Assembly (NCBI RefSeq): GCF_003931795.1
Contig: NZ_CP034234.1
Span: 62,001-126,000 of the forward strand
Source of the DNA: Erysipelothrix piscisicarius
GTDB lineage: Bacteria > Bacillota_I > Bacilli_A > Erysipelotrichales > Erysipelotrichaceae
Direction of reading: 5' to 3'
DNA length: 64,000 nt
Shown: positions 23,253 to 54,795 of the stretch, one piece after another
How positions within the stretch are numbered: the first letter of the stretch is position 1
Layout: each line of letters opens with the position of its first letter
Position numbers and translations under genes: made by a program
Notes under the pieces: model-generated
What the model was told of the DNA's origin: nothing
The model's database searches: none
What the model saw: the letters and a program-made list of their open reading frames with translations, nothing else

Positions 23253-24005
23253 ATGACAATGAGCCATAAAAAATTAAAAAAGCAACGAACCATGCTCTAT
23301 TTTATGCAGGCAGCCAAAGAAATTGTGAACACCGAAGGCATGCAAGCAATCACCATCCGAAAAGTCGCAGACATTGCCGGATACAACAGTGCTACCCTCT
23401 ATAATTACTTTGAAAATCTTGACCAACTGATTGCTTTCGCCATGATCCATACCATCACCGATTACCTCAGTGATCTTGAAACCATTATTAACTTAGACCT
23501 TAATGCACTTGATAAGTATTTATTAATGTGGCGATGTTATTCCGATTGGTCTTTTAAAGATCCCGAAATCTATACTTACGTATTTGATTCTGAGAAGTCT
23601 GATGAAATTTTAAGTCATATGGATGCTTACAACGCAACGTTTCCAATGCATAAAACCAAACCCGCAAAACACATCAGTGATCTTGTTTTAGGGCAAGGAA
23701 TGAAACGGCGTAACCAACTTTCAATAGACCCTTGTGTCGAGGCGGGATATTTTAGAGCCGATGATGTTTCAACGATCGTGAATTTTGCCTATATTATGCA
23801 TCAAGGGATTATCCGTCGTATTCTAAAGGGGTCCTATACCTTCGATAAGAATCACGTTAAAGAATTTCTTGATTATTTTGTTTCCTTTCTTCGAGGGTAC
23901 GATCAAACACAAAGTCTAACTGCTGACACAGTCACCAAAATCTTAGCCTTTGATATCCATAAAAAACACATCAACCCTGGAACTGACCTAGTTCCGTGGG
24001 ACTAA
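23253..24005 (+). CDS. TetR family transcriptional regulator, C-terminal residues altered by IS insertion
   Basis: A 250-residue protein. Residues about 14-62 are the TetR helix-turn-helix (AAKEIVNTEGMQAITIRKVADIAGYNSATLYNYFENLDQLI); the rest is an all-helical ligand domain. ATG at 23253 follows AAGGAGGTTGTC. The IS at 23979 enters just before the end: the uninterrupted frame would read ...KKHINPNR and stop, whereas it now ends ...HINPGTDLVPWD. Only the last few residues change, so the protein is probably functional. Its targets are not evident. Confidence 0.85.
   Translation: MTMSHKKLKKQRTMLYFMQAAKEIVNTEGMQAITIRKVADIAGYNSATLYNYFENLDQLIAFAMIHTITDYLSDLETIINLDLNALDKYLLMWRCYSDWSFKDPEIYTYVFDSEKSDEILSHMDAYNATFPMHKTKPAKHISDLVLGQGMKRRNQLSIDPCVEAGYFRADDVSTIVNFAYIMHQGIIRRILKGSYTFDKNHVKEFLDYFVSFLRGYDQTQSLTADTVTKILAFDIHKKHINPGTDLVPWD
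23976..23978. repeat. Target-site duplication CCT, left copy
   Basis: CCT directly precedes the IS and recurs at 25250-25252 after it, a 3-bp duplication as expected for IS3-family insertion. Confidence 0.75.
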
Positions 24006-25249
24006 AGAAAAAAACCTCTTGTATGAGAATTATTGTAAAATAGTTCAATATAGGAGGTTTTTATATGGGAACACGAACTATGCATAGCTATGAGACAAAG
24101 ATGAAAGTTATAGAAATGAAATTGGCAGGCTACTCAAGCAGGTTTATTCAGACTGAACTTGGAATAAAAAATGTAACACAAGTCAAAACATGGTGGAGAT
24201 GGTATCGAAATGGTGAACACTATCGATTTTCTCAACCTGTAGGCAAGCAATATACTTTTGAAAAGGCCTGAAGGAGACACGGTCGAAGAAACACAAAGAC
24301 TTAGAATTAAATCTTTGAGCAACAAATTGAACTATTAAAAGTATTTGAAAGAGAAAGGATGTGGTTCCTGAAATAATCATCAAGCTCGTTGAAGAGTATC
24401 GCAACACTGTATCTCTTAAAGATATCTTGAATCTTTTTGGGGTACCTAAGTCAACGTATTACCGTTGGACTAAAAAAGAGCAACTAGAGTCTAATAATTA
24501 TTCTGTCAATGAAGCATTAGTAATTGAACTTTGTAAAGAAAATAAATTTCGTTATGGATATCGAAAAATAACTGCATTAATTCGAAAAGAAAGAATTATC
24601 AATAAGAACACTGTTCAAAAGATAATGCAGAAACACCAATGTCAATGCCGTGTTAAGGTCAAACGGTATCGAAAAAACAAAAATCCGAAGATCATTATGC
24701 CCAATATCATTAATCGCGACTTTAAATCACTACGTCCTCTAGAGAAATTGGTGACAGATATCACTTACATCCCTTATGGCCATAAGATGCTCTATTTATC
24801 TACGATCATGGATTTATATAATGGTGAGATTATTGCGTCTACATTGAGTGACAGACAAAACCTAGAATGTGGTTGATACATTAAATCAACTTCCGGATAT
24901 CGTTCAGCCATGTATTCTTCATTCTGATCAAGGAGTGTCTATACATCAAAAGAGTATCAACTCAAAGTAAAAAATAAAAGCATTACCATGAGTATGTCCC
25001 GTAAGGGTACACCGCTGATAATGCTCCTATCGAATCGTTTCATGCCTCGCTAAAGTGTGAAACATTCGAATTAAACCCAGAACTAAAGGGTTCTACTGAA
25101 ATTGTATCACAAACTGTGATAAACTATTTAAAATATTACAATGAAAATCGAATACAAGAAAAGCTAGGATATCAATCTCCCGTAAATTATCGGTTAACTT
25201 CATCCTAACTTGGTTTTTTTCTTTAGTCCCAAGGAACTAGGTCAGTTCC
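23979..25249 (+). mobile_element. IS3-family (IS150 group) insertion sequence, copy 1
   Basis: A 1,271-bp element with terminal inverted repeats of about 34 bp beginning GGAACTGACCTAGTTCC. It is flanked by CCT duplications. It is almost identical to copy 2 (38338-39614), same orientation, 14.4 kb away, but carries about a dozen small insertions or deletions, nearly all in homopolymers. Confidence 0.93.
24065..25208 (+). pseudogene. IS150-group transposase OrfA/OrfB, multiply frameshifted
   Basis: Sequence corresponds to orfA and orfB of copy 2. OrfA loses frame at TTTTGAAAAGGCC (one G missing twice). The A6G slippery run is reduced to AAAAG. OrfB is cut at GAATGTGG (GT missing) and later by a missing G and an altered GGTACACCG. 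The catalytic VTDITYI is present, but SDQG and the Glu region are out of frame. As written it encodes no active transposase; if the indels are sequencing errors, it is intact like copy 2. Confidence 0.85.
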
Positions 25250-25252
25250 CCT
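25250..25252. repeat. Target-site duplication CCT, right copy
   Basis: Right partner of the CCT at 23976-23978. Confidence 0.75.
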
Positions 25253-25275: not shown

Positions 25276-26664
25276 TTAGAATATAATCATTGAAAGTACA
25301 AACATAAAGACCGTACCAACAATCATTGGAACCGATGTACGTTTCACAATATCAAACGGTTCTTCTTTTGTTGTTCCTGCAACAATCATCACAACGGCAG
25401 ATACCGGTGAAACAGCACGTAGTAAGTTTCCTGCAAGCCCCATTGGCACAGTCACCGCAAATGGACTAATGCCCGCTGCTGCAGCAAGAGGAACCATAAG
25501 CGGTACCATTGCATAGAAGAGTGCCATTCCACTACCACTCAAGAGGACAATCAGTGCTGTAAAGAGTACAAGAATCAGTGGTAAGACAAAGCCTGAAGCT
25601 TGGGTTGTTTGCATTACCGTTTGAAGTTGGGTAATTAGACCAATCGCTTTAAGACCATTCACAAAGGTTGAAGCAGCAACAAGTAAGACAACAATCCCCA
25701 TTGCATTTCCCATCCCTTTAAAGAAGGATTCTGTAGCTGTTAAGACTTTATTTCCATCACGATGACGTATCAGTTCGCACGCAATCACAATGATAAAGGA
25801 CATCATCGATACCACTTCAACAGATAAGTTCAAGGTTGATCCTGTGATTGCATTAATTGCAAAGACAACAAGTAAAATTAAGATTGGTAACAAGGGAAGC
25901 AATGTGTAGACAAATTTATAAAGACCACTGCCTTCAATTTGCTTGGGTGCTTCTACATTAAGAACAACCTTTTCTTCACCACTTGCTACAAGTTTTTTAT
26001 CACAGTATTTTTGCCAGAATGTATGTGCGAGTGCCATCACAAGAAGTGTTGGTACGGAAACAATTGCATGATGTTGGAAGACATAGTCTGCAACAGGCAT
26101 TCCAAGTTCCGCAGCAATCGCAACGTTATCTGCACCTAATGGTGTAGGCATAACCGTTGCCGTTGTCGCAATAATTGCGGCTGCAGTTAATGTTGACATC
26201 CCTGATTCTTTTAAAACTGGATACAAGGTTGCAAGCAAAATAATGGATAAATTGGATGCACTTGGAATTACAAGGGATAACAAGTTCCCGAGTAAGAATA
26301 CAATTGGAACCAAAACGTATGCTGATTTTATGCCTTTGAGGGGTTTTGTAAGTGTATTAACCGTTACCTCATTTGCACCAATCGCATTCATATAAGCCGT
26401 ATAACCACCCAATACAAGAATCACAAACCCAGAACTTGGGAGTGTTTTCTTAAATTGATCGATAATCGCAAGAAGTGGATCAACTAAGATATGAACCGGT
26501 TCTTCAATAACCGCATTCCCCATCATAATTGCTACCACCATGAGTAAAATACCAACACCAAACAACGTAATCTTAATATCGAGTTTTTTAAGAAGCATGA
26601 CAACTACGATTGCGACTGCAATCAAGCCTGCTCCATACATAACAAATGGACTCATAACCTTCAT
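25276..26664 (-). CDS. DcuC-family (C4-dicarboxylate type) membrane transporter
   Basis: A 462-residue protein with about 12 hydrophobic segments. Family-type features are a central VIPSASNLSIILLATLYPVL, TVMPTPLGADNVAIAAELG, and a late VSPVSAVVMIVAG, typical of DcuC/C4-dicarboxylate antiporters. It is the last gene of an operon with nucleoside hydrolase, ribokinase and a LacI-type regulator, 11 bp after the hydrolase. A nucleoside, nucleobase or ribose-derived substrate is therefore as plausible as a dicarboxylate. Start ATG at 26664 follows AAGGAGAATGAAGGTT or nearby. Confidence 0.75.
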   Translation of the reverse strand: MKVMSPFVMYGAGLIAVAIVVVMLLKKLDIKITLFGVGILLMVVAIMMGNAVIEEPVHILVDPLLAIIDQFKKTLPSSGFVILVLGGYTAYMNAIGANEVTVNTLTKPLKGIKSAYVLVPIVFLLGNLLSLVIPSASNLSIILLATLYPVLKESGMSTLTAAAIIATTATVMPTPLGADNVAIAAELGMPVADYVFQHHAIVSVPTLLVMALAHTFWQKYCDKKLVASGEEKVVLNVEAPKQIEGSGLYKFVYTLLPLLPILILLVVFAINAITGSTLNLSVEVVSMMSFIIVIACELIRHRDGNKVLTATESFFKGMGNAMGIVVLLVAASTFVNGLKAIGLITQLQTVMQTTQASGFVLPLILVLFTALIVLLSGSGMALFYAMVPLMVPLAAAAGISPFAVTVPMGLAGNLLRAVSPVSAVVMIVAGTTKEEPFDIVKRTSVPMIVGTVFMFVLSMIIF

Positions 26665-26675
26665 TCTCCTTTATA

Positions 26676-27605
26676 TTAGTTTTTCGTTTGACACTTTTGA
26701 ATTGATTCGAGGAACCATGTTTTAAATAGATCCGCATCGATATCAGTCGTAACTTTCGCATTTGCGGGCTGACCACAATATCCTTTTAGGTCTACCACGG
26801 TAGCCCCTGATGTATATTCCCCTTGAGTCTCAATACCTACAAATGTCTCCACCACTTCAAACATTTCTGGTTTAAGTAAGTATGCAATCGCACAACTGTC
26901 ATACATCTTTAAACCAACCTTAAAGCTTCCACCGCGATAGGTTTTAAATAAGTGATAAAACATATTTCCAACAGGATTCATGTCCTTAATCAATGCAGAA
27001 TCTTCCGGATAAACAAGGGCTTTAAGACCTACATCAAGACCTGCCATCACAATATTTAGACCACTTTCAAAAACAATCTTCGCAGCTTCTGGGTCTACTT
27101 TAATATTAAATTCAGAATAGACACCCGCATTACCACGTCCGACACTACCACCCATTAATACCACTTCATCAATGCGTTCAATGACTTCCGGATATTCTCG
27201 AATTAATAAAGCAATATTGGTTAGTGGACCAATTGGAACAAGTGTAATTTTCTCCGCACTGTTCATAATGACCTCATACATTGCCTCTACCGCATTTTTC
27301 TCGAGAAGCAAACTTCGATCTTCCTCAGGGAAATCATAACCATCCATCCCCGTTTTACCGTGTACACCACTGGCATCAATCGGTTCTCTTAGTAAGGGAC
27401 GGGATGCACCCATGGCCACTGGAATTTTTTTACCGTAGAAGGGCAACAGCTTTAAGGTGTTTTTCGTAACCTTCTCAATACTTACATTTCCTGCAACCGT
27501 TGTAATCAACTGAACATCCAGTTCTTCCGAAAATAAAGCGATTGCCAGTGCAACGGCATCATCAATGCCTGGATCTGTATCAATGATAATTTTGCGTTTA
27601 CTCAT
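26676..27605 (-). CDS. Inosine-uridine-preferring nucleoside hydrolase
   Basis: Hydrolyses ribonucleosides to base and ribose. Seen: the Ca2+-binding IIIDTDPGIDDAVAL at the N-terminus, a second metal region with MGGSVGRGN, and SEFNIKVDPEAAKIV. The length of 309 aa is typical. Start at the second of two adjacent ATGs (27605), 6-7 bp after GGAGG; the frame overlaps the ribokinase end. The released ribose would be phosphorylated by the upstream ribokinase. Confidence 0.93.
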   Translation of the reverse strand: MSKRKIIIDTDPGIDDAVALAIALFSEELDVQLITTVAGNVSIEKVTKNTLKLLPFYGKKIPVAMGASRPLLREPIDASGVHGKTGMDGYDFPEEDRSLLLEKNAVEAMYEVIMNSAEKITLVPIGPLTNIALLIREYPEVIERIDEVVLMGGSVGRGNAGVYSEFNIKVDPEAAKIVFESGLNIVMAGLDVGLKALVYPEDSALIKDMNPVGNMFYHLFKTYRGGSFKVGLKMYDSCAIAYLLKPEMFEVVETFVGIETQGEYTSGATVVDLKGYCGQPANAKVTTDIDADLFKTWFLESIQKCQTKN

Positions 27606-28524
27606 CATTTCCTCCTTGGTTCATAAAATCTGTTAATGCTTCAAGTGTGGGAAGTGCTTCTTGAGCACCTTGTTTTGTACATGCAAGGGCACCTGCAGCA
27701 CTTGCATAGGTTAATGCTTTTTGAAGATTCCATTGCTTACTAAGACCGTATAAGAACGTTCCAATATAAGCATCGCCTGCTCCCGTTGTATCTACTACAT
27801 CTACTGCATAAGATGGGATGATGTCAACGTGATCTTTAGAAATACAGATACTTCCCGAGCCACCTAAGGTAAAGACAACCGTCTTAACACCTCGTTCACA
27901 TAAGGTTGTGGCCGCACGCTTACAATCCTCAAGATCATGAGGGAAGATCTCTGTCAAAATTTCACTCTCTGATTGATTTACCACAAGGTAATCTATTAAT
28001 GGATAAAAATCTTCGTTCATCACTACCGCAGGGGCTGGATTCACCACCGTTGTCATTCCCAAGGTTTTTGCTTGTTTGAGACCTTCATATACGGCATAGA
28101 GTGGAACTTCAAATTGAGTTAAAAAGAAATCCTGGTTAGATCCCTGTAGGGCTTCATGAATGCGTGGAACACTAATATTCGCATTCGCACCTTGGTTTAT
28201 AATTATGCGATTATCGTGATCTGTTTTTAAAATCATCGCAACCCCGGTATGTTCATCATCACTGAGAAGAACATGATTTGTATTAACCCCAAAATTATTT
28301 AAAGCATTTAAGGCAAGTTGACCATGATAATCCCGTCCAACACTTCCAATGAGAAATGTAGGGGCGCCTAGATTGGCACATGCCGCTGCTTGATTACCAC
28401 CCTTACCCCCAATTGCTTCAAAATAATCATAGCCAGCAATCGTTTCACCCTGTTGAGGGACACGATTCGCGGAAATCATCAAATCCGCATTAATACTTCC
28501 AAGTACATAGATCTTACTGCTCAT
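27598..28524 (-). CDS. rbsK: Ribokinase
   Basis: PfkB-family sugar kinase giving ribose 5-phosphate. Seen: GSINADLMISANRVPQQGET, the GGKGGNQAAACANLGA signature near the N-terminus, and the C-terminal DTTGAGDAYIGTFLYGL with the catalytic Asp and anion hole. About 308 aa. Start ATG at 28524 overlaps the end of the regulator gene, and the stop overlaps the hydrolase start: tight translational coupling. No ribose ABC transporter is present, so ribose probably comes from nucleosides. Confidence 0.93.
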   Translation of the reverse strand: MSSKIYVLGSINADLMISANRVPQQGETIAGYDYFEAIGGKGGNQAAACANLGAPTFLIGSVGRDYHGQLALNALNNFGVNTNHVLLSDDEHTGVAMILKTDHDNRIIINQGANANISVPRIHEALQGSNQDFFLTQFEVPLYAVYEGLKQAKTLGMTTVVNPAPAVVMNEDFYPLIDYLVVNQSESEILTEIFPHDLEDCKRAATTLCERGVKTVVFTLGGSGSICISKDHVDIIPSYAVDVVDTTGAGDAYIGTFLYGLSKQWNLQKALTYASAAGALACTKQGAQEALPTLEALTDFMNQGGNDE

Positions 28525-29782
28525 AAAATAACACCATCCCACTTCCTAGTTCTTCAGTCGGTCTTGTGATAAAACCATACTGAGCATAAAACGCTTCAAC
28601 ACCTGGCGTCGCCATGAGCCCTACATAAGCACCTTGACAGGCAACCCGTGAAAGATACTTAAAGATTGATTGCATCAGTAAATCGCCACAGCCTTGATGT
28701 TGATATTGCGGATGTACGATGACATCCTTGAGAAAGAACACAATCCTTCCATCACCGACCAGTCGGGCAATGGCAACCGCTTGGTCACCATCAAACACCA
28801 CAACATCGTATAAATCATGATCAAGCGCCATCTGAATATCCTCTAAGGCATATGCTTTAAAGTTACAGACTGAATGCATCGCTAAAACGGAAAGATCTTG
28901 AGAAACAGAAGTTAACGGAATCCCAAACATCTCTGATTGTTTTAAATTATCATACCCCACAACTTTAAGGGTTTTCTGAGTCAGTCCAGCTTCATCCATC
29001 GCCTTAAGCAATCCGTAAGCCATGAGATCATTACATGCAAAGACCCCATCGATGTCTTTACGTGCTACGACATCCTTTCCAAAAACATACCCTGTCTCAT
29101 ACCGGTAATCCCCTTCATAACGGTTTTTCTTTGAAATCGAATATCCGGATTCTTTTAAGGCACGAAGATGCCCCTCATAACGTTGACGCCCACCATAGGT
29201 AAGTAAAGAACCGGTAAAACATGCAATGTGTTTACAACCCTGTTCAATGAGGTATTGTGTCGCCAGATACCCACCATATTCATTATCGTAAGAAACTTGA
29301 TTTGTTTGAATGTTTTCAAAAATGCGGTCTACCAACACAAAAGGACCCCCAATCGAATCCAACTCCTGCTGTACATCCGCATTCACACGGTATGCATCCA
29401 AAGCAGGACAGAGAATTAACCCATCAACTTGCCGATCTTTAAGTTCTTTAATAAGCGTGCGATCATTTTCAACATGATCATCACTGTTGACCATAAAAAC
29501 GAGATATCCCTCTTTACGTAATAAATCTTCAACATGTTTAGAAAATGATGAAAAATAGGGGTTTTCAATATCTGGAATAATTAAGCCGATTGTTTGCGTT
29601 TTATTCGTAGAAAGACTGCGAGCAACATAATTTGGTCGATAATTTAACTCTTCCGCAATCCGTTTAATCTCTGATTTCTTAGCTTCTGAAATTCGTGAGG
29701 GCGCGTCATTTAATACTAAAGAAACGGATGCTTCTGAAACATGCGCTAACTTCGCAATATCTTTAAGTCTAACTTTTTTCAT
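28514..29782 (-). CDS. LacI-family regulator fused to a GNAT acetyltransferase domain
   Basis: A 422-residue protein. Residues 1-55: LacI HTH (VRLKDIAKLAHVSEASVSLVL, hinge NYRPNYVARSL). Residues 60 to about 310: periplasmic-binding-like sensor (GLIIPDIENPYFSSF, GVFACNDLMAYGLLKAM, VVGYDNL), ending prematurely at SVSQDLSVLAMHSVCNF. Residues about 315-422: GNAT domain with the acetyl-CoA loop HPQYQHQGCGDLLMQS and FYAQYGF. First gene of the nucleoside operon, so it probably represses it in response to ribose or a nucleoside. Whether the acetyltransferase is active is unknown. Confidence 0.85.
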   Translation of the reverse strand: MKKVRLKDIAKLAHVSEASVSLVLNDAPSRISEAKKSEIKRIAEELNYRPNYVARSLSTNKTQTIGLIIPDIENPYFSSFSKHVEDLLRKEGYLVFMVNSDDHVENDRTLIKELKDRQVDGLILCPALDAYRVNADVQQELDSIGGPFVLVDRIFENIQTNQVSYDNEYGGYLATQYLIEQGCKHIACFTGSLLTYGGRQRYEGHLRALKESGYSISKKNRYEGDYRYETGYVFGKDVVARKDIDGVFACNDLMAYGLLKAMDEAGLTQKTLKVVGYDNLKQSEMFGIPLTSVSQDLSVLAMHSVCNFKAYALEDIQMALDHDLYDVVVFDGDQAVAIARLVGDGRIVFFLKDVIVHPQYQHQGCGDLLMQSIFKYLSRVACQGAYVGLMATPGVEAFYAQYGFITRPTEELGSGMVLFYEQ

Positions 29783-29855
29783 ACTCCTCCATTCTTACTA
29801 CTATTGTAACTGATATTTTATTCATGTGAAGAACCTTTTACACAATCAGTCTTAG

Positions 29856-29919
29856 ATTGTTTTACTTTTCATAAGTATATCAAATATCTGCAATTCAAAA
29901 AAAGTATGGATAAAACAAT
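29856..29919. promoter_or_regulatory. Spaced 9-bp inverted repeat between the LacI-GNAT gene and the AhpD-like gene
   Basis: ATTGTTTTA (29856-29864) and TAAAACAAT (29911-29919) are exact reverse complements 46 bp apart in the divergent intergenic region. They might be paired operators of the LacI-type protein, but such short A/T-rich repeats also occur by chance. Confidence 0.25.
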
Positions 29920-29973
29920 TGAAGATATTTCTTTTTGTGTTAGCATGGACATATACATACAGGAGGAACGATC

Positions 29974-30406: not shown

Positions 30407-33045
30407 TTATTTTTTTGTTTTTGTATGAATTTTTTCTGCAGGATAGTAAGCATGTTCAATAATTTCCTTCATATCCTTAACAAGTGGAAGACGTGGGTTA
30501 CATGGTGAACATTGGTCTTCGTATGCAAGATAAGCAATGGTTTCTGTTTCAGCCATAAATGCTTTTTCATTAACACCTTGTTCTTGGAAACTCATCTTAA
30601 TACCACAACGAACGGCTAAGTCATGACATGCTTGCGCATAACTTTCAACACCTTCTTCGGTTGTGCTTGCAGGTAAGCCAAGGATACGTGCTAATTCAGC
30701 ATAACGTTCATGGGCACGGTATACATTGTATTTTGGCCATAATGAAGGTTTTTCTGGATGTGTACCATTATAACGTACAACATAAGGGAAGAGAATTGCA
30801 TTAATACGTCCGTGAGGCATTTCGTCGAATTTACCACCAATTTTATGTGCTAATGAGTGACTCATACCTAAGAATGCATTCGCAAATGCCATCCCTGCAA
30901 GGGTTGAAGCATTATGCATTTTTTCACGTGCATCCAAGTCGTTTTTTCCATTATGAACTGCACGTTCAAGGTTTTCAAAGACCATTTTAATGGCTTGAAT
31001 TGCAAGACCATCTGTATAGTCATTTGCGAAGTTTGAAACATATGCTTCTGTAGCATGTGTTAATACATCAAGACCTGTATCTGCAGTTACGGATGCAGGA
31101 AGGTTTGTTGTGAAGATTGGGTCAACAATCGCAACAGTTGGAACAAGTGAGTAGTCCGCAAGTGGGTATTTCTTATTTGAATCTGTATCGGTGATAACTG
31201 CAAATGGTGTAACTTCACTACCGGTACCGGAAGTTGTTGGGATACATACAAGTTGTGCTTTTTCACCCAGGTCTGGGTAACGGAATGCACGTTTACGGAT
31301 ATCCACAAATTTTTGTTTAAGATCGTTAAAGTCTACATCTGGATGTTCATAGAAGATCCACATACCTTTAGCGGCATCCATTGGTGAACCACCACCTAAA
31401 GCAATAATTGTATCCGGTTGGAATGATTTCATCATTTCATAGCCACGTTTAACAGTGTTTAATGATGGATCTGGCTCAACATCGCAGAATAATTGAATTT
31501 GAACTTTGTTACGTCGTTTATTAAGTTGTTCAACAATTAAGTTGTAGTAACCTAAATCAACCATAGCACGGTCTGTTACAACAAATACACGTTCAACATC
31601 ACGCATTGATTTTAAATATTGAATTGAGTTTCTTTCGAAATAAATTTTTGATGGTACTTTGAACCATTGCATATTGTTATTACGTCTCCCAATCTTTTTA
31701 ATATTCAAGAGGTGAACTGCACTTACGTTATCGCCTACTGAGTTATGTCCGTATGAGCCACAACCAAGTGTTAATGAAGGAATAAAGTCATTATAGATGT
31801 TACCAATTCCTCCAAAGGTTGATGGTGAGTTCCAGATAATACGAATTGCAGGAACAGTTTCTCCAAATTTTTCGGAAAGTTCTTTTGATTTTGTATGGAT
31901 TGCTGCTGAGTGACCCAATCCATCAAATTCAACCATTTGACGTGCTAAGCTGATTCCTTCATCGCTGTCTTTTGATTTTAAGACTGCAAGAACTGGTGAT
32001 AATTTTTCACGTGTTAGAACTTCGTTAGGTCCTACTTCTTTACATTCTGCGGCTAAGATTACTGTATTTGAAGGCACTTTAATCCCTGCTTGTTCAGCAA
32101 TCCATGTTGCATCTTTCCCTACAACATTTGGATTTAATTTTGCTTCAAGAACATTTGCATCGCCACTTGAAACTCCGAACATAAATTTCTCAACTTTTTT
32201 CTTATCTGTAGCTGAGAGGAAGTGCATACCGTATTTTTTGAATTTTTCAATGGCTTCATCATAAACGTCTACGTCAATAACCACAGCTTGCTCTGAAGCA
32301 CAGATCATTCCGTTATCAAATGATTTTGATAGGGGAATATCGTTAACAGCTTGGGCAACCTCTGCTGATTTTTCAATATATGCAGGAACGTTTCCGGCAC
32401 CAACACCAAGTGCAGGTTTCCACATGAGTAAGCAGCACGAACCATTGCATTACCACCGGTTGCAAGAATTGTCGCAACACCGTCGTGGTTCATCAGCTCA
32501 TCTGTTTTTTCTTTTGATCCACGTTCAATCCATTGAACACAGTGTTCAGGAGCCCCTGCAGCAACTGCAGCTTCATAAACAACTTTCGCAGCCGCAATAC
32601 TACATTTTTGTGCAGATGGGTGTAATGAGAAAATAATTGGATTTCTTGTTTTAAGTGAGATTAATGATTTGAATATTGCAGTTGATGTTGGGTTTGTAAC
32701 GGGTGTAATTCCACAAATAACCCCTACTGGATCAGCAATTTCGGTAATCCCTGTGATGTCCTCATCACTGATAACACCAACTGTTTTAAGGTGACGCATA
32801 TGGTTAATAACATGTTCACATGCAAATAAGTTTTTCGTTGCTTTGTCTTCAAAACAGCCTCGTCCTGTTTCTTCAACAGCAAGTTGCGCTAAAACACCGT
32901 GTTGATCGAGTGCAGCAACACTTGCTTTCGCAACGATATAATCGACTTGTTCTTGATTTAAATCCATAAAACCATTTAATGCTTTTTGAGCATTCGCAAC
33001 GAGTTCATTGACTTCGTTGTCCAATTCTACTTTTTTAGTTGTCAT
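30407..33045 (-). pseudogene. adhE: Bifunctional acetaldehyde-CoA/alcohol dehydrogenase AdhE, frameshifted
   Basis: Fermentative enzyme reducing acetyl-CoA to ethanol. The first frame (32305-33045) holds the N-terminal aldehyde dehydrogenase domain (GITPVTNPTSTAIFKSL). The second (30407-32425) holds the rest, including the active-site MICASEQAVVID and the iron-dependent alcohol dehydrogenase (FVVTDRAMVDLGY, GGGSPMDAAK, GMSHSLAHKIGG). Adding one T to the TTT at 32417-32419 restores SCGKPALGVGAGNVPAY and one protein of about 879 aa, the family length. ATG at 33045 follows AAGGGAGGTCACATACC. Probably intact in life. Confidence 0.92.
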
Positions 33046-35118: not shown

Positions 35119-35852
35119 ATTATTGAGTTTAAAAATGTTTCTAAACATTATCAAGGTAAAAACAAAACATTCAAGGCACTCGACAACGTTTCATTTGAAA
35201 TCAAACAATCTGAAATTTTCGGAATTATTGGTGAAAGCGGAGCCGGTAAGTCAACTGCGCTGCGTTTAATCAATGGATTAGAACAGCCCGACGATGGTGT
35301 CGTTTACGTTGATGGCACCGATTTAAAATCACTCTCAAGTAACGCAATGCGTTCACTTCGTAAAGAGATTGGCGTCGTTTTCCAAAATTTCAATTTATTG
35401 GGGAATCGTACTGTGTTTGATAACATTGCCTTGCCACTAAGACTTGCAAAGAATAAAGATTGTAATGTGGTGTCTGAAGCACTTTGCTTTGTACACCTCG
35501 AATCAAAGATCCACCACTATCCTGCACAACTTAGTGGTGGAGAGCGTCAACGTGTTGCCATTGCACGTGCATTGATTACCAAACCGAAGATTTTAATTTG
35601 TGATGAACCATCATCTGCTTTAGATCCTCATACTACCAAAGAAATTCTTGAGGTTTTAAACAAATTAATCAACAATTCGGCACAACGATTGTGATTGTTA
35701 CTCATGAATTAGAAGTTGCGAAGATGTTGTGTGATCGGGTTGCGATTTTGGATAATGGAACGCTTCATGAAGTGATTTCAGTAAATCGTCACGATGAAGA
35801 CAATCCAACACCCTCTTACGCAATCCATGCAAAGGACTATTTATTACAATGA
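35119..35852 (+). pseudogene. metN: Methionine ABC transporter ATP-binding protein; ATT start and one frameshift
   Basis: ATPase subunit of the methionine importer. The frame reads (I)IEFKNVSKHYQGK, Walker A GESGAGKST, LSGGERQRVAIARAL, Walker B ILICDEPSSALD, then shifts after NKLINN. Adding one A to the AA at 35667-35668 gives LNQQFGTTIVIVTHELEVAK. No ATG, GTG or TTG is in frame before Met at 35347, inside the domain. ATT at 35119, 7 bp after GGGAGG, is where the start should be. The product of about 244 aa lacks the C-terminal NIL sensing domain. Its stop overlaps the metI ATG. Confidence 0.85.
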
Positions 35853-38337: not shown

Positions 38338-38423
38338 GGAACTGACCTAGTTCCGTGGGACTAAAGAAAAAAACCTCTTGTATGAGAATTATTGTAAAAT
38401 AGTTCAATATAGGAGGTTTTTAT

Positions 38424-38741
38424 ATGGGAACACGAACTATGCATAGCTATGAGACAAAGATGAAAGTTATAGAAATGAAATTGGCAGGCTACTCAAGCAG
38501 GTTTATTCAGACTGAACTTGGAATAAAAAATGTAACACAAGTCAAAACATGGTGGAGATGGTATCGAAATGGTGAACACTATCGATTTTCTCAACCTGTA
38601 GGCAAGCAATATACTTTTGGAAAAGGGCCTGAAGGAGACACGGTCGAAGAAACACAAAGACTTAGAATTAAATCTTTGGAGCAACAAATTGAACTATTAA
38701 AAAAGTATTTGGAAAGAGAAAGGATGTGGTTCCTGAAATAA
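38424..38741 (+). CDS. IS150-group OrfA (helix-turn-helix protein)
   Basis: A 105-residue DNA-binding half of the transposase. The N-terminal HTH is MKVIEMKLAGYSSRFIQTEL...WWRWY; the C-terminal leucine-zipper-like helix is ETQRLRIKSLEQQIELLKKYLER. ATG follows AGGAGGTTTTTAT. It overlaps orfB by 16 bp, with a slippery A6G run upstream of the overlap. Confidence 0.92.
   Translation: MGTRTMHSYETKMKVIEMKLAGYSSRFIQTELGIKNVTQVKTWWRWYRNGEHYRFSQPVGKQYTFGKGPEGDTVEETQRLRIKSLEQQIELLKKYLERERMWFLK
38699..38705 (+). promoter_or_regulatory. Programmed -1 frameshift heptamer A AAA AAG
   Basis: AAAAAAG is in the right phase of orfA (TTA-AAA-AAG). A -1 slip enters the orfB frame without a stop and would make the OrfAB fusion transposase, as known for IS3-family elements. 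Confidence 0.75.
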
Positions 38742-39574
38742 TCATCAAGCTCGTTGAAGAGTATCGCAACACTGTATCTCTTAAAGATATCTTGAATCTT
38801 TTTGGGGTACCTAAGTCAACGTATTACCGTTGGACTAAAAAAGAGCAACTAGAGTCTAATAATTATTCTGTCAATGAAGCATTAGTAATTGAACTTTGTA
38901 AAGAAAATAAATTTCGTTATGGATATCGAAAAATAACTGCATTAATTCGAAAAGAAAGAATTATCAATAAGAACACTGTTCAAAAGATAATGCAGAAACA
39001 CCAATGTCAATGCCGTGTTAAGGTCAAACGGTATCGAAAACAAAATCCGAAGATCATTATGCCCAATATCATTAATCGCGACTTTAAATCACTACGTCCT
39101 CTAGAGAAATTGGTGACAGATATCACTTACATCCCTTATGGCCATAAGATGCTCTATTTATCTACGATCATGGATTTATATAATGGTGAGATTATTGCGT
39201 CTACATTGAGTGACAGACAAAACCTAGAATGTGTGGTTGATACATTAAATCAACTTCCGGATATCGTTCAGCCATGTATTCTTCATTCTGATCAAGGGAG
39301 TGTCTATACATCAAAAGAGTATCAACTCAAAGTAAAAAATAAAAGCATTACCATGAGTATGTCCCGTAAGGGTACTCCCGCTGATAATGCTCCTATCGAA
39401 TCGTTTCATGCCTCGCTAAAGTGTGAAACATTCGAATTAAACCCAGAACTAAAGGGTTCTACTGAAATTGTATCACAAACTGTGATAAACTATTTAAAAT
39501 ATTACAATGAAAATCGAATACAAGAAAAGCTAGGATATCAATCTCCCGTAAATTATCGGTTAACTTCATCCTAA
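38726..39574 (+). CDS. IS150-group OrfB (DDE transposase domain)
   Basis: A 282-residue catalytic part. The retroviral-integrase-type DDE triad appears as KLVTDITYI, LHSDQGSVYTS and NAPIESFHASLK with the following K. An HTH (KDILNLFGVPKSTYYRW) and HTH_21-like region (FRYGYRKITALI) precede. First possible start is GTG at 38726, but it is probably made mainly as an OrfAB fusion. Confidence 0.93.
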   Translation: MVPEIIIKLVEEYRNTVSLKDILNLFGVPKSTYYRWTKKEQLESNNYSVNEALVIELCKENKFRYGYRKITALIRKERIINKNTVQKIMQKHQCQCRVKVKRYRKQNPKIIMPNIINRDFKSLRPLEKLVTDITYIPYGHKMLYLSTIMDLYNGEIIASTLSDRQNLECVVDTLNQLPDIVQPCILHSDQGSVYTSKEYQLKVKNKSITMSMSRKGTPADNAPIESFHASLKCETFELNPELKGSTEIVSQTVINYLKYYNENRIQEKLGYQSPVNYRLTSS

Positions 39575-39672
39575 CTTGGGTTTTTCTTTAGTCCCAAGGA
39601 ACTAGGTCAGTTCCGACTGAGATGTTTTTTTACTTTATCATTTATAAGAAACCGTCATTTTAGAATTACATA

Positions 39673-53808: not shown

Positions 53809-53842
53809 AAAGAGTTCAGTACTTTAGTGCTGAACTCTTTTT
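53806..53842. terminator. Terminator after the TraB gene
   Basis: AAAAAGAGTTCAG/CTGAACTCTTTTT stem with extended AC/GT pairing; T runs on both strands. Confidence 0.88.
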
Positions 53843-53850
53843 ATCTTTTA

Positions 53851-54779
53851 TCAAATCTCAACCGCACCACTTTCACTTTTATTAAAGTCTATCTCATAGG
53901 CCGTTTTGAAGTCAAATATTTTTCGCGGCATTGAGTTAATTTTGAAGCAAATATCATCAAGATATTGTTGCGCTATATCATACATTGATTTTCCTTTTGG
54001 TATAAACCTTCTAACGATTGCATTCGCTCGTTCATTGGTTCCACGTTGAAAAGAACAGTATGGATCACACTTATATAGTTTCACACCCAACCGCTTGGCT
54101 GTAATTCCTAATGTTTTAAATTCAAGTCCATTATCTACTGTTATCGATTTCGTGGTTATATTATTCTCTTCAATAAATTTTCGAATTAAGTTTGATGTGT
54201 AATAGTCATATCGATATTCTGCTTTAATAAGCCAGGTCATTCTTGAGCAGCGGTCTACAATGGATATAATCGCTGCAGATTCATGTTTCTTACCGATTAT
54301 AGAGTCGATTTCGAGATGGCCAATCTCGTTACGTTCCTCAATGTATTTAGGTCTAAGGCTAATGGAAGTACCGTTTTCTCTTCAAGTTCCATCTCAAGTG
54401 ATTCATCATTCCACTAATTCTCTTTTACGTTTTCGACGTTTATAGCACATTCTATTTGGTTTATATCAAGTTTACCTTGATTAATCCAGTTATAGACTTG
54501 CTGCGATGAAACACACGGTTTATATGGATGATATCGTTTATAGTTACTCAAGCATACTTCTACAATGAACTTTAGGATCATAGTGAGAATGCAGATATTC
54601 GATTAAGTGGGAATATTTTCTCGAATATCAATCGTTCGTTTCTTATAGACATTATTTTATATCTAGAAATCGTAGAATGAGATATATTGAGTTTACGTGC
54701 TGCCTTGCGCATAGAGTAGCCGATGCTTAATAGAATATCAATTTGGTCTTTCATTTTTATCTAATTGTTTATACTTCAT
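53851..54779 (-). pseudogene. IS30-family transposase, frameshifted
   Basis: The start ATG at 54779 gives MKYKQLDKNER, then the frame is broken. The next frame has the HTH QIDILLSIGYSMRKAARKLN; fragments follow up to HLEIDSIIGKKHES. The last intact frame (53851-54240) holds MTWLIKAEYRYD, TVDNGLEF and ERANAIVRRFIPKG, the Asp and Glu of the IS30 DDE domain. Inactive as written. Confidence 0.82.
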
Positions 54780-54792
54780 ATGGGAGCTCCTT

Positions 54793-54795
54793 TAG
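54793..54795. repeat. Target-site duplication TAG, left copy
   Basis: TAG precedes the inner IS and recurs at 56200-56202. Confidence 0.65.

Follow-up and report, generated by a model that had tools for sequence, protein, structure and literature searches.

The fused frame and its operon

We analysed a 64,000-nucleotide stretch of the Erysipelothrix piscisicarius genome (GCF_003931795.1, contig NZ_CP034234.1, positions 62,001 to 126,000; hereafter the window). On its minus strand a single open frame of 422 aa runs uninterrupted from ATG to stop at 28514-29782, and joins a part of a LacI-type repressor to a part of a GNAT acetyltransferase upstream of genes for ribokinase, a ribonucleoside hydrolase and a DcuC-family carrier. 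The features of the locus and the evidence for each are as follows.

29783..29973, minus strand: region upstream of the repressor gene, with the presumed promoter that would now also read the operon (sequence scan)
28514..29782, minus strand: fused open frame, truncated LacI-type repressor plus truncated GNAT (open reading frame, Pfam, comparison with the closest relative, G009)
29630..29767, minus strand: LacI-type helix-turn-helix, aa 6-51 (Pfam PF00356, E 2.9e-13)
28883..29599, minus strand: LacI sensor domain of the periplasmic-binding type, aa 62-300, lacking the C-terminal helix and strand (Pfam; model of the intact E. tonsillarum repressor)
28875..28883, minus strand: putative deletion junction with the sole remaining copy of the 9-bp repeat AGCGATGCA (in G009 two copies bound the absent 268 bp)
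28517..28876, minus strand: remainder of the GNAT, aa 303-422, without some 20 residues of its N-terminus (Pfam, comparison with G009)
27598..28542, minus strand: ribokinase gene rbsK, full length (NCBIfam TIGR02152, 291 bits, just below the cutoff of 299.65)
26676..27608, minus strand: full-length gene for the ribonucleoside hydrolase RihC (NF008036 scores 460 bits and passes its cutoff)
25276..26664, minus strand: full-length gene for a DcuC-family carrier, at the end of the operon (NF037994 and TIGR00771 both exceed their cutoffs)

Pfam matches to both domains within the one frame bear out the original prediction that a LacI-type repressor continues into a GNAT domain without a stop. The N-terminal helix-turn-helix is present (PF00356), and the sensor domain stops short of its C-terminal end: LacI-family models are 327-358 long and their matches end near aa 298-307 or earlier, while the intact homologue reaches 329 aa, of which the fused protein lacks the C-terminal 27 or so residues. 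The early end of the sensor domain and the absence of the usual LacI C-terminus had been correctly recognised. Among NCBIfam models the nearest to the repressor part are those of RbsR, PurR and CcpA, all below cutoff, the best being RbsR NF047341 (202.7 bits against a cutoff of 382). In the model of the intact E. tonsillarum repressor, used only to place the missing elements, a helix spans residues 297-314 and a strand residues 320-325; the fusion retains about six residues of this helix and has lost the strand entirely, with the break at AMH of ...SVLAMHSVCNF. The AlphaFold model of the fusion (7-row alignment; residues 278-327, at the junction, below pLDDT 50) is too poor to argue from, and its mean pLDDT of 59.9 cannot fairly be compared with the 71.7 of the intact repressor, which was modelled from a different, 3-row alignment.

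Three overlapping Pfam models (Acetyltransf_10, _7 and _1) cover about aa 314-411 of the fused frame. The acetyl-CoA-binding region is present according to Pfam, and the predicted acetyl-CoA loop, of the form Q-x-x-G-x-G, is there as QHQGCG. The description of the GNAT domain as complete does not hold, since the first 19-22 or so codons of the gene in relatives are absent from this half. It aligns to the E. tonsillarum GNAT, a protein of 140 aa, from residue 20 to residue 140; the N-terminal strand and helix of this half are not whole, and by the order of the GNAT fold the first strand and most of the first helix are presumably missing. Among proteins of solved structure, the closest in sequence are GNATs that are themselves uncharacterised (1y7r, 2atr, 2ozh). 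With its acetyl-CoA loop retained, the GNAT part may have weak activity. The fused protein occurs once in the genome, which holds no second close copy of either half.

The start of rbsK overlaps the end of the fused frame. At each of the 16 GNAT-containing loci that we compared (L036-L042, L066-L069, L071-L074, L078), a DcuC-family carrier gene accompanies those of ribokinase and RihC, and both this carrier and the GNAT regularly form part of the ribokinase-RihC operon across the class. In PMC7873064, DcuC of E. sp. Strain 2 is taken to be a C4-dicarboxylate carrier; DcuC is given there as core in E. piscisicarius and missing from E. rhusiopathiae, and 286 annotated pseudogenes are counted in the fish isolate. 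The constant operon of the carrier suggests transport of nucleosides or ribose instead of C4-dicarboxylates.

Elsewhere in the window, a difference of one base near 32420 breaks adhE (30407-33045) into two frames, where the neighbouring genome G002 has one 879-aa frame; the frame of a methionine-type ABC transporter ATPase (35347-35694) is interrupted near 35658 relative to G009. In addition, repeated IS-like stretches lie at 23979-25250, 38338-39614 and 53840-54793, with copies elsewhere in the G009 region and small indels.

The missing 268 bp and the locus in relatives

Among 60 genomes searched, the closest relative is G009, which matches residues 1-305 of the fused protein at 98% and, at a different place, residues 296-422 at 95%. 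There the repressor (329 aa) and the GNAT (141 aa) are encoded by separate genes in different frames about 120 bp apart, so that such a deletion is needed to join them. Leaving 268 bp out of G009 gives the sequence of the window, apart from 70 mismatches over 1269 positions. Ten neighbouring breakpoints fit equally well because both ends of the 268 bp carry the 9-bp direct repeat AGCGATGCA. In a first-order Markov simulation, none of 2000 random breakpoints at that spacing lay in at least 9 bp of identity. Repeats of 9 bp at a spacing of 100-600 bp are otherwise common (4 pairs in the region against an expected 4.4), and this one is meaningful only because the breakpoints sit within it. An absence of 268 bp between 9-bp copies is the mark of a deletion that ran from one short direct repeat to another. 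In E. tonsillarum (G005) both copies of the repeat are disrupted, so the opportunity for deletion probably arose near the lineage of the window.

On the repressor side, the missing DNA holds in G009 the last 27 or so codons and the stop, followed by a terminator-like hairpin and T run. Next come the control elements of the operon, namely the palindrome TTAAACGCTTAA, a TTGACA-17-TAAACT promoter and a ribosome-binding site, and on the GNAT side the palindrome TTAAGCGCTTAA just before the GNAT start, the start itself and 19-22 GNAT codons. The two operator-like palindromes are 66 bp apart in G009, G005 and G012. The putative operator of the operon is TTAARCGCTTAA, and the window gave no match to the 16-bp form of the operator pattern at up to 3 mismatches. 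The exact 14-bp pattern occurs twice in G009, both times at this promoter, and is found nowhere in the window's genome; when up to one mismatch was allowed, the counts of 9 in the window's genome and 8 in G009 were too near those of the reversed control (4 and 4) to interpret.

Across the 16 loci with GNAT, a CG-centred operator-like palindrome precedes the gene in 12 and a TTGACA-type promoter in all; at L069, L073 and L074 this promoter falls on the assigned GNAT start or close to it, where the start codons are doubtful and the scan for promoter and operator ended. In many genera of the class the operon promoter, about TTGACARCGNTTWCA, sits beside the palindromic operator and overlaps an apparent CcpA cre site; its -35 region, TGACAGCGGTTACA, is similar to the cre consensus. 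Upstream of the repressor gene, the scan of 29783..29973 yielded no operator-like palindrome and a weak TTCACA-16-TACAAT match at 29830-29803; promoter-like sites in the region were no more frequent than in shuffled sequence.

The exact junction was found in one of 13 genomes of the genus, compared at one genome per species. Out of 20 loci examined, 16 hold the repressor, GNAT, ribokinase, RihC and carrier genes, six of them in Erysipelothrix (G009, G005, G012, G003, G007, G004) and ten elsewhere. Repressor and GNAT are separate genes in all 16, the repressor lying directly before GNAT in 11 and downstream of the carrier in 5. Loci without GNAT (L070, L075, L076, L077) were left out of the 16, as were L043 and L044 (G011 and the second G002 locus), whose repressors share 41% and 35% identity with the query and have other gene neighbours. 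No LacI-GNAT protein other than that of the window was among the matches listed from the 395 class genomes searched, none was found in a relative among the 60 genomes, which partly overlap with the 395, and a contig scan that covered E. tonsillarum, E. aquatica and E. anatis and may omit the window's own or very near records returned no second copy. The same domain order, which the original prediction had proposed to look for, was thus not found in the relatives examined; every one of them that holds both genes has them apart, as that prediction had expected of a strain-specific deletion rather than a conserved fusion.

Long open frames in G012, G152 and G190, which the genome search had returned as candidate natural fusions, were rejected, the genes being separate in the DNA. 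Titles and abstract openings revealed no paper on a LacI-GNAT architecture, which is no proof of absence, and the available part of PMC4968806 holds nothing on this locus. A 629-aa frame in G022 (L077, 3238-5127), which resembles LacI over aa 2-180 and ribokinase over aa 324-625, may be a fusion of repressor and kinase. In the neighbouring genome G002 (L057, record 488374-490862) the repressor, GNAT and carrier are gone and ribokinase-like fragments remain, while RihC is kept together with a diverged operator pair 66 bp apart. The operon is therefore damaged in two neighbouring Erysipelothrix genomes, differently in each.

Origin of the fusion and competing explanations

We consider it highly probable (about 0.88) that a 268-bp deletion at the 9-bp repeats accidentally joined the remnants of the repressor and GNAT genes, with local decay or loss of control, and no new kind of sensor, as the outcome. 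The ancestral order would have been a LacI-type repressor gene with its own terminator, the promoter with two operators, and then GNAT, rbsK, rihC and the dcuC-like gene, and it would be the lineage of the window that lost DNA. In a single step, slipped mispairing or a similar process between the 9-bp direct repeats could have taken from the repressor its C-terminal end and stop and from the GNAT its start and about 20 codons, together with what lay between them (terminator, promoter and both operators), and the remnants would have come into frame by a one-in-three chance. An accidental fusion after a deletion, which the original prediction had allowed for, is strongly supported by the 268-bp loss at a 9-bp repeat and by the separate genes in 16/16 relative loci. 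The truncated repressor would probably no longer fold or repress, the truncated GNAT would be inactive or weak, and transcription of rbsK, rihC and the carrier gene would start, free of repression, at the repressor's promoter. As the terminator and the operon promoter are both gone, these downstream genes would be readable from there or from a weak internal promoter. Loss of control through such promoter capture could be adaptive or neutral.

Between the window and G009, dN/dS is well under 1 in all five genes, with dN and dS of 0.009 and 0.34 for the LacI part, 0.011 and 0.079 for GNAT, 0.020 and 0.30 for rbsK, 0.008 and 0.16 for rihC, and 0.005 and 0.19 for the carrier. Polarised by G005, and omitting sites where window, G009 and G005 all differ, the repressor part has 5 nonsynonymous and 26 synonymous changes on the window side and 0 and 19 on the G009 side, which is not significant (Fisher p 0.14). 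With low dN/dS and no clear decay after it, the deletion may be recent, and the substitution pattern in these sequences neither establishes relaxed selection on the repressor part nor argues against it. The silent divergence of the GNAT part (28517-28876) from G009 is far below that of the repressor part and ribokinase (0.079 against 0.34 and 0.30), perhaps through recombination.

A different reading takes the fused protein for a functional chimera, in which the repressor half binds DNA or a ligand, the GNAT half uses acetyl-CoA, and the acetyl-CoA level thereby feeds into nucleoside use. We regard it as extremely improbable. Although the frame is open across both domains, the helix-turn-helix and acetyl-CoA region are retained and few replacements have accumulated since the split from G009, the repressor lacks the C-terminal helix and strand of the intact model and the C-terminal end of its relatives, the GNAT is missing some 20 residues at its N-terminus, no operators are left at this locus, the architecture is absent from relatives (60 genomes, and the matches listed from 395, partly the same), and the model of the fusion is poor at the junction (278-327 below pLDDT 50). 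The suggestion that the repressor acetylates itself or its operon partners found no support, given the truncated domains, the loss of the operator pair and the absence of the architecture from the relatives examined, and a self-acetylating repressor is very unlikely. It is likewise scarcely credible that the last strand and helix of the repressor replace the lost first ones of the GNAT and so yield a working bifunctional protein, an acetyltransferase borne by a DNA-binding domain and made from the repressor's promoter.

The strain might truly have the 268 bp, their absence being an error of assembly or sequencing. Small indels nearby relative to G009 (adhE near 32420, ABC ATPase near 35658) would be compatible with assembly errors or with many pseudogenes; however, these are one-base differences, and a clean 268-bp loss at a 9-bp repeat would be atypical of long-read or short-read error, which makes an artefact improbable. 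Finally, the same deletion might have been favoured, with the added benefit of a constitutive nucleoside operon, the fused protein being a by-product whose open frame couples translation to rbsK. Consistent with this are the loss of terminator, promoter and both operators in one step, the overlap of the rbsK start with the end of the fused frame, and the full length and conservation of rbsK, rihC and the carrier gene; but the arrangement is known from one genome, and the neighbouring G002 has instead lost most of the operon, which fits plain decay. We therefore hold a selective advantage to be possible, though rather unlikely. Repeat-mediated deletion as an accident remains the preferred reading, and it implies that terminator, promoter and two operators can all be lost through one deletion between short repeats, with an open frame remaining that resembles a new multidomain regulator. 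In automatic annotation the fused frame might be labelled a bifunctional protein.

Relation to known regulators and acetyltransferases

With LacI-family repressors of the RbsR, PurR and CcpA type the fusion has in common the helix-turn-helix and most of the sensor domain, but the C-terminal 27 or so residues are gone and GNAT sequence stands in their place. Its other half corresponds to the GNAT that stands alone in the operon of Erysipelothrix and of further genera in the class, the retained part being 58-81% identical to that of three named Erysipelothrix species, whereas the copy in the window is fused to the repressor and has neither its start codon nor the first 20 or so residues. MarR-GNAT proteins and similar natural fusions of a helix-turn-helix to a GNAT are conserved architectures with whole domains. 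They likewise combine a regulator with an acetyltransferase, while the case in the window is, in all probability, the product of a deletion in a single genome.
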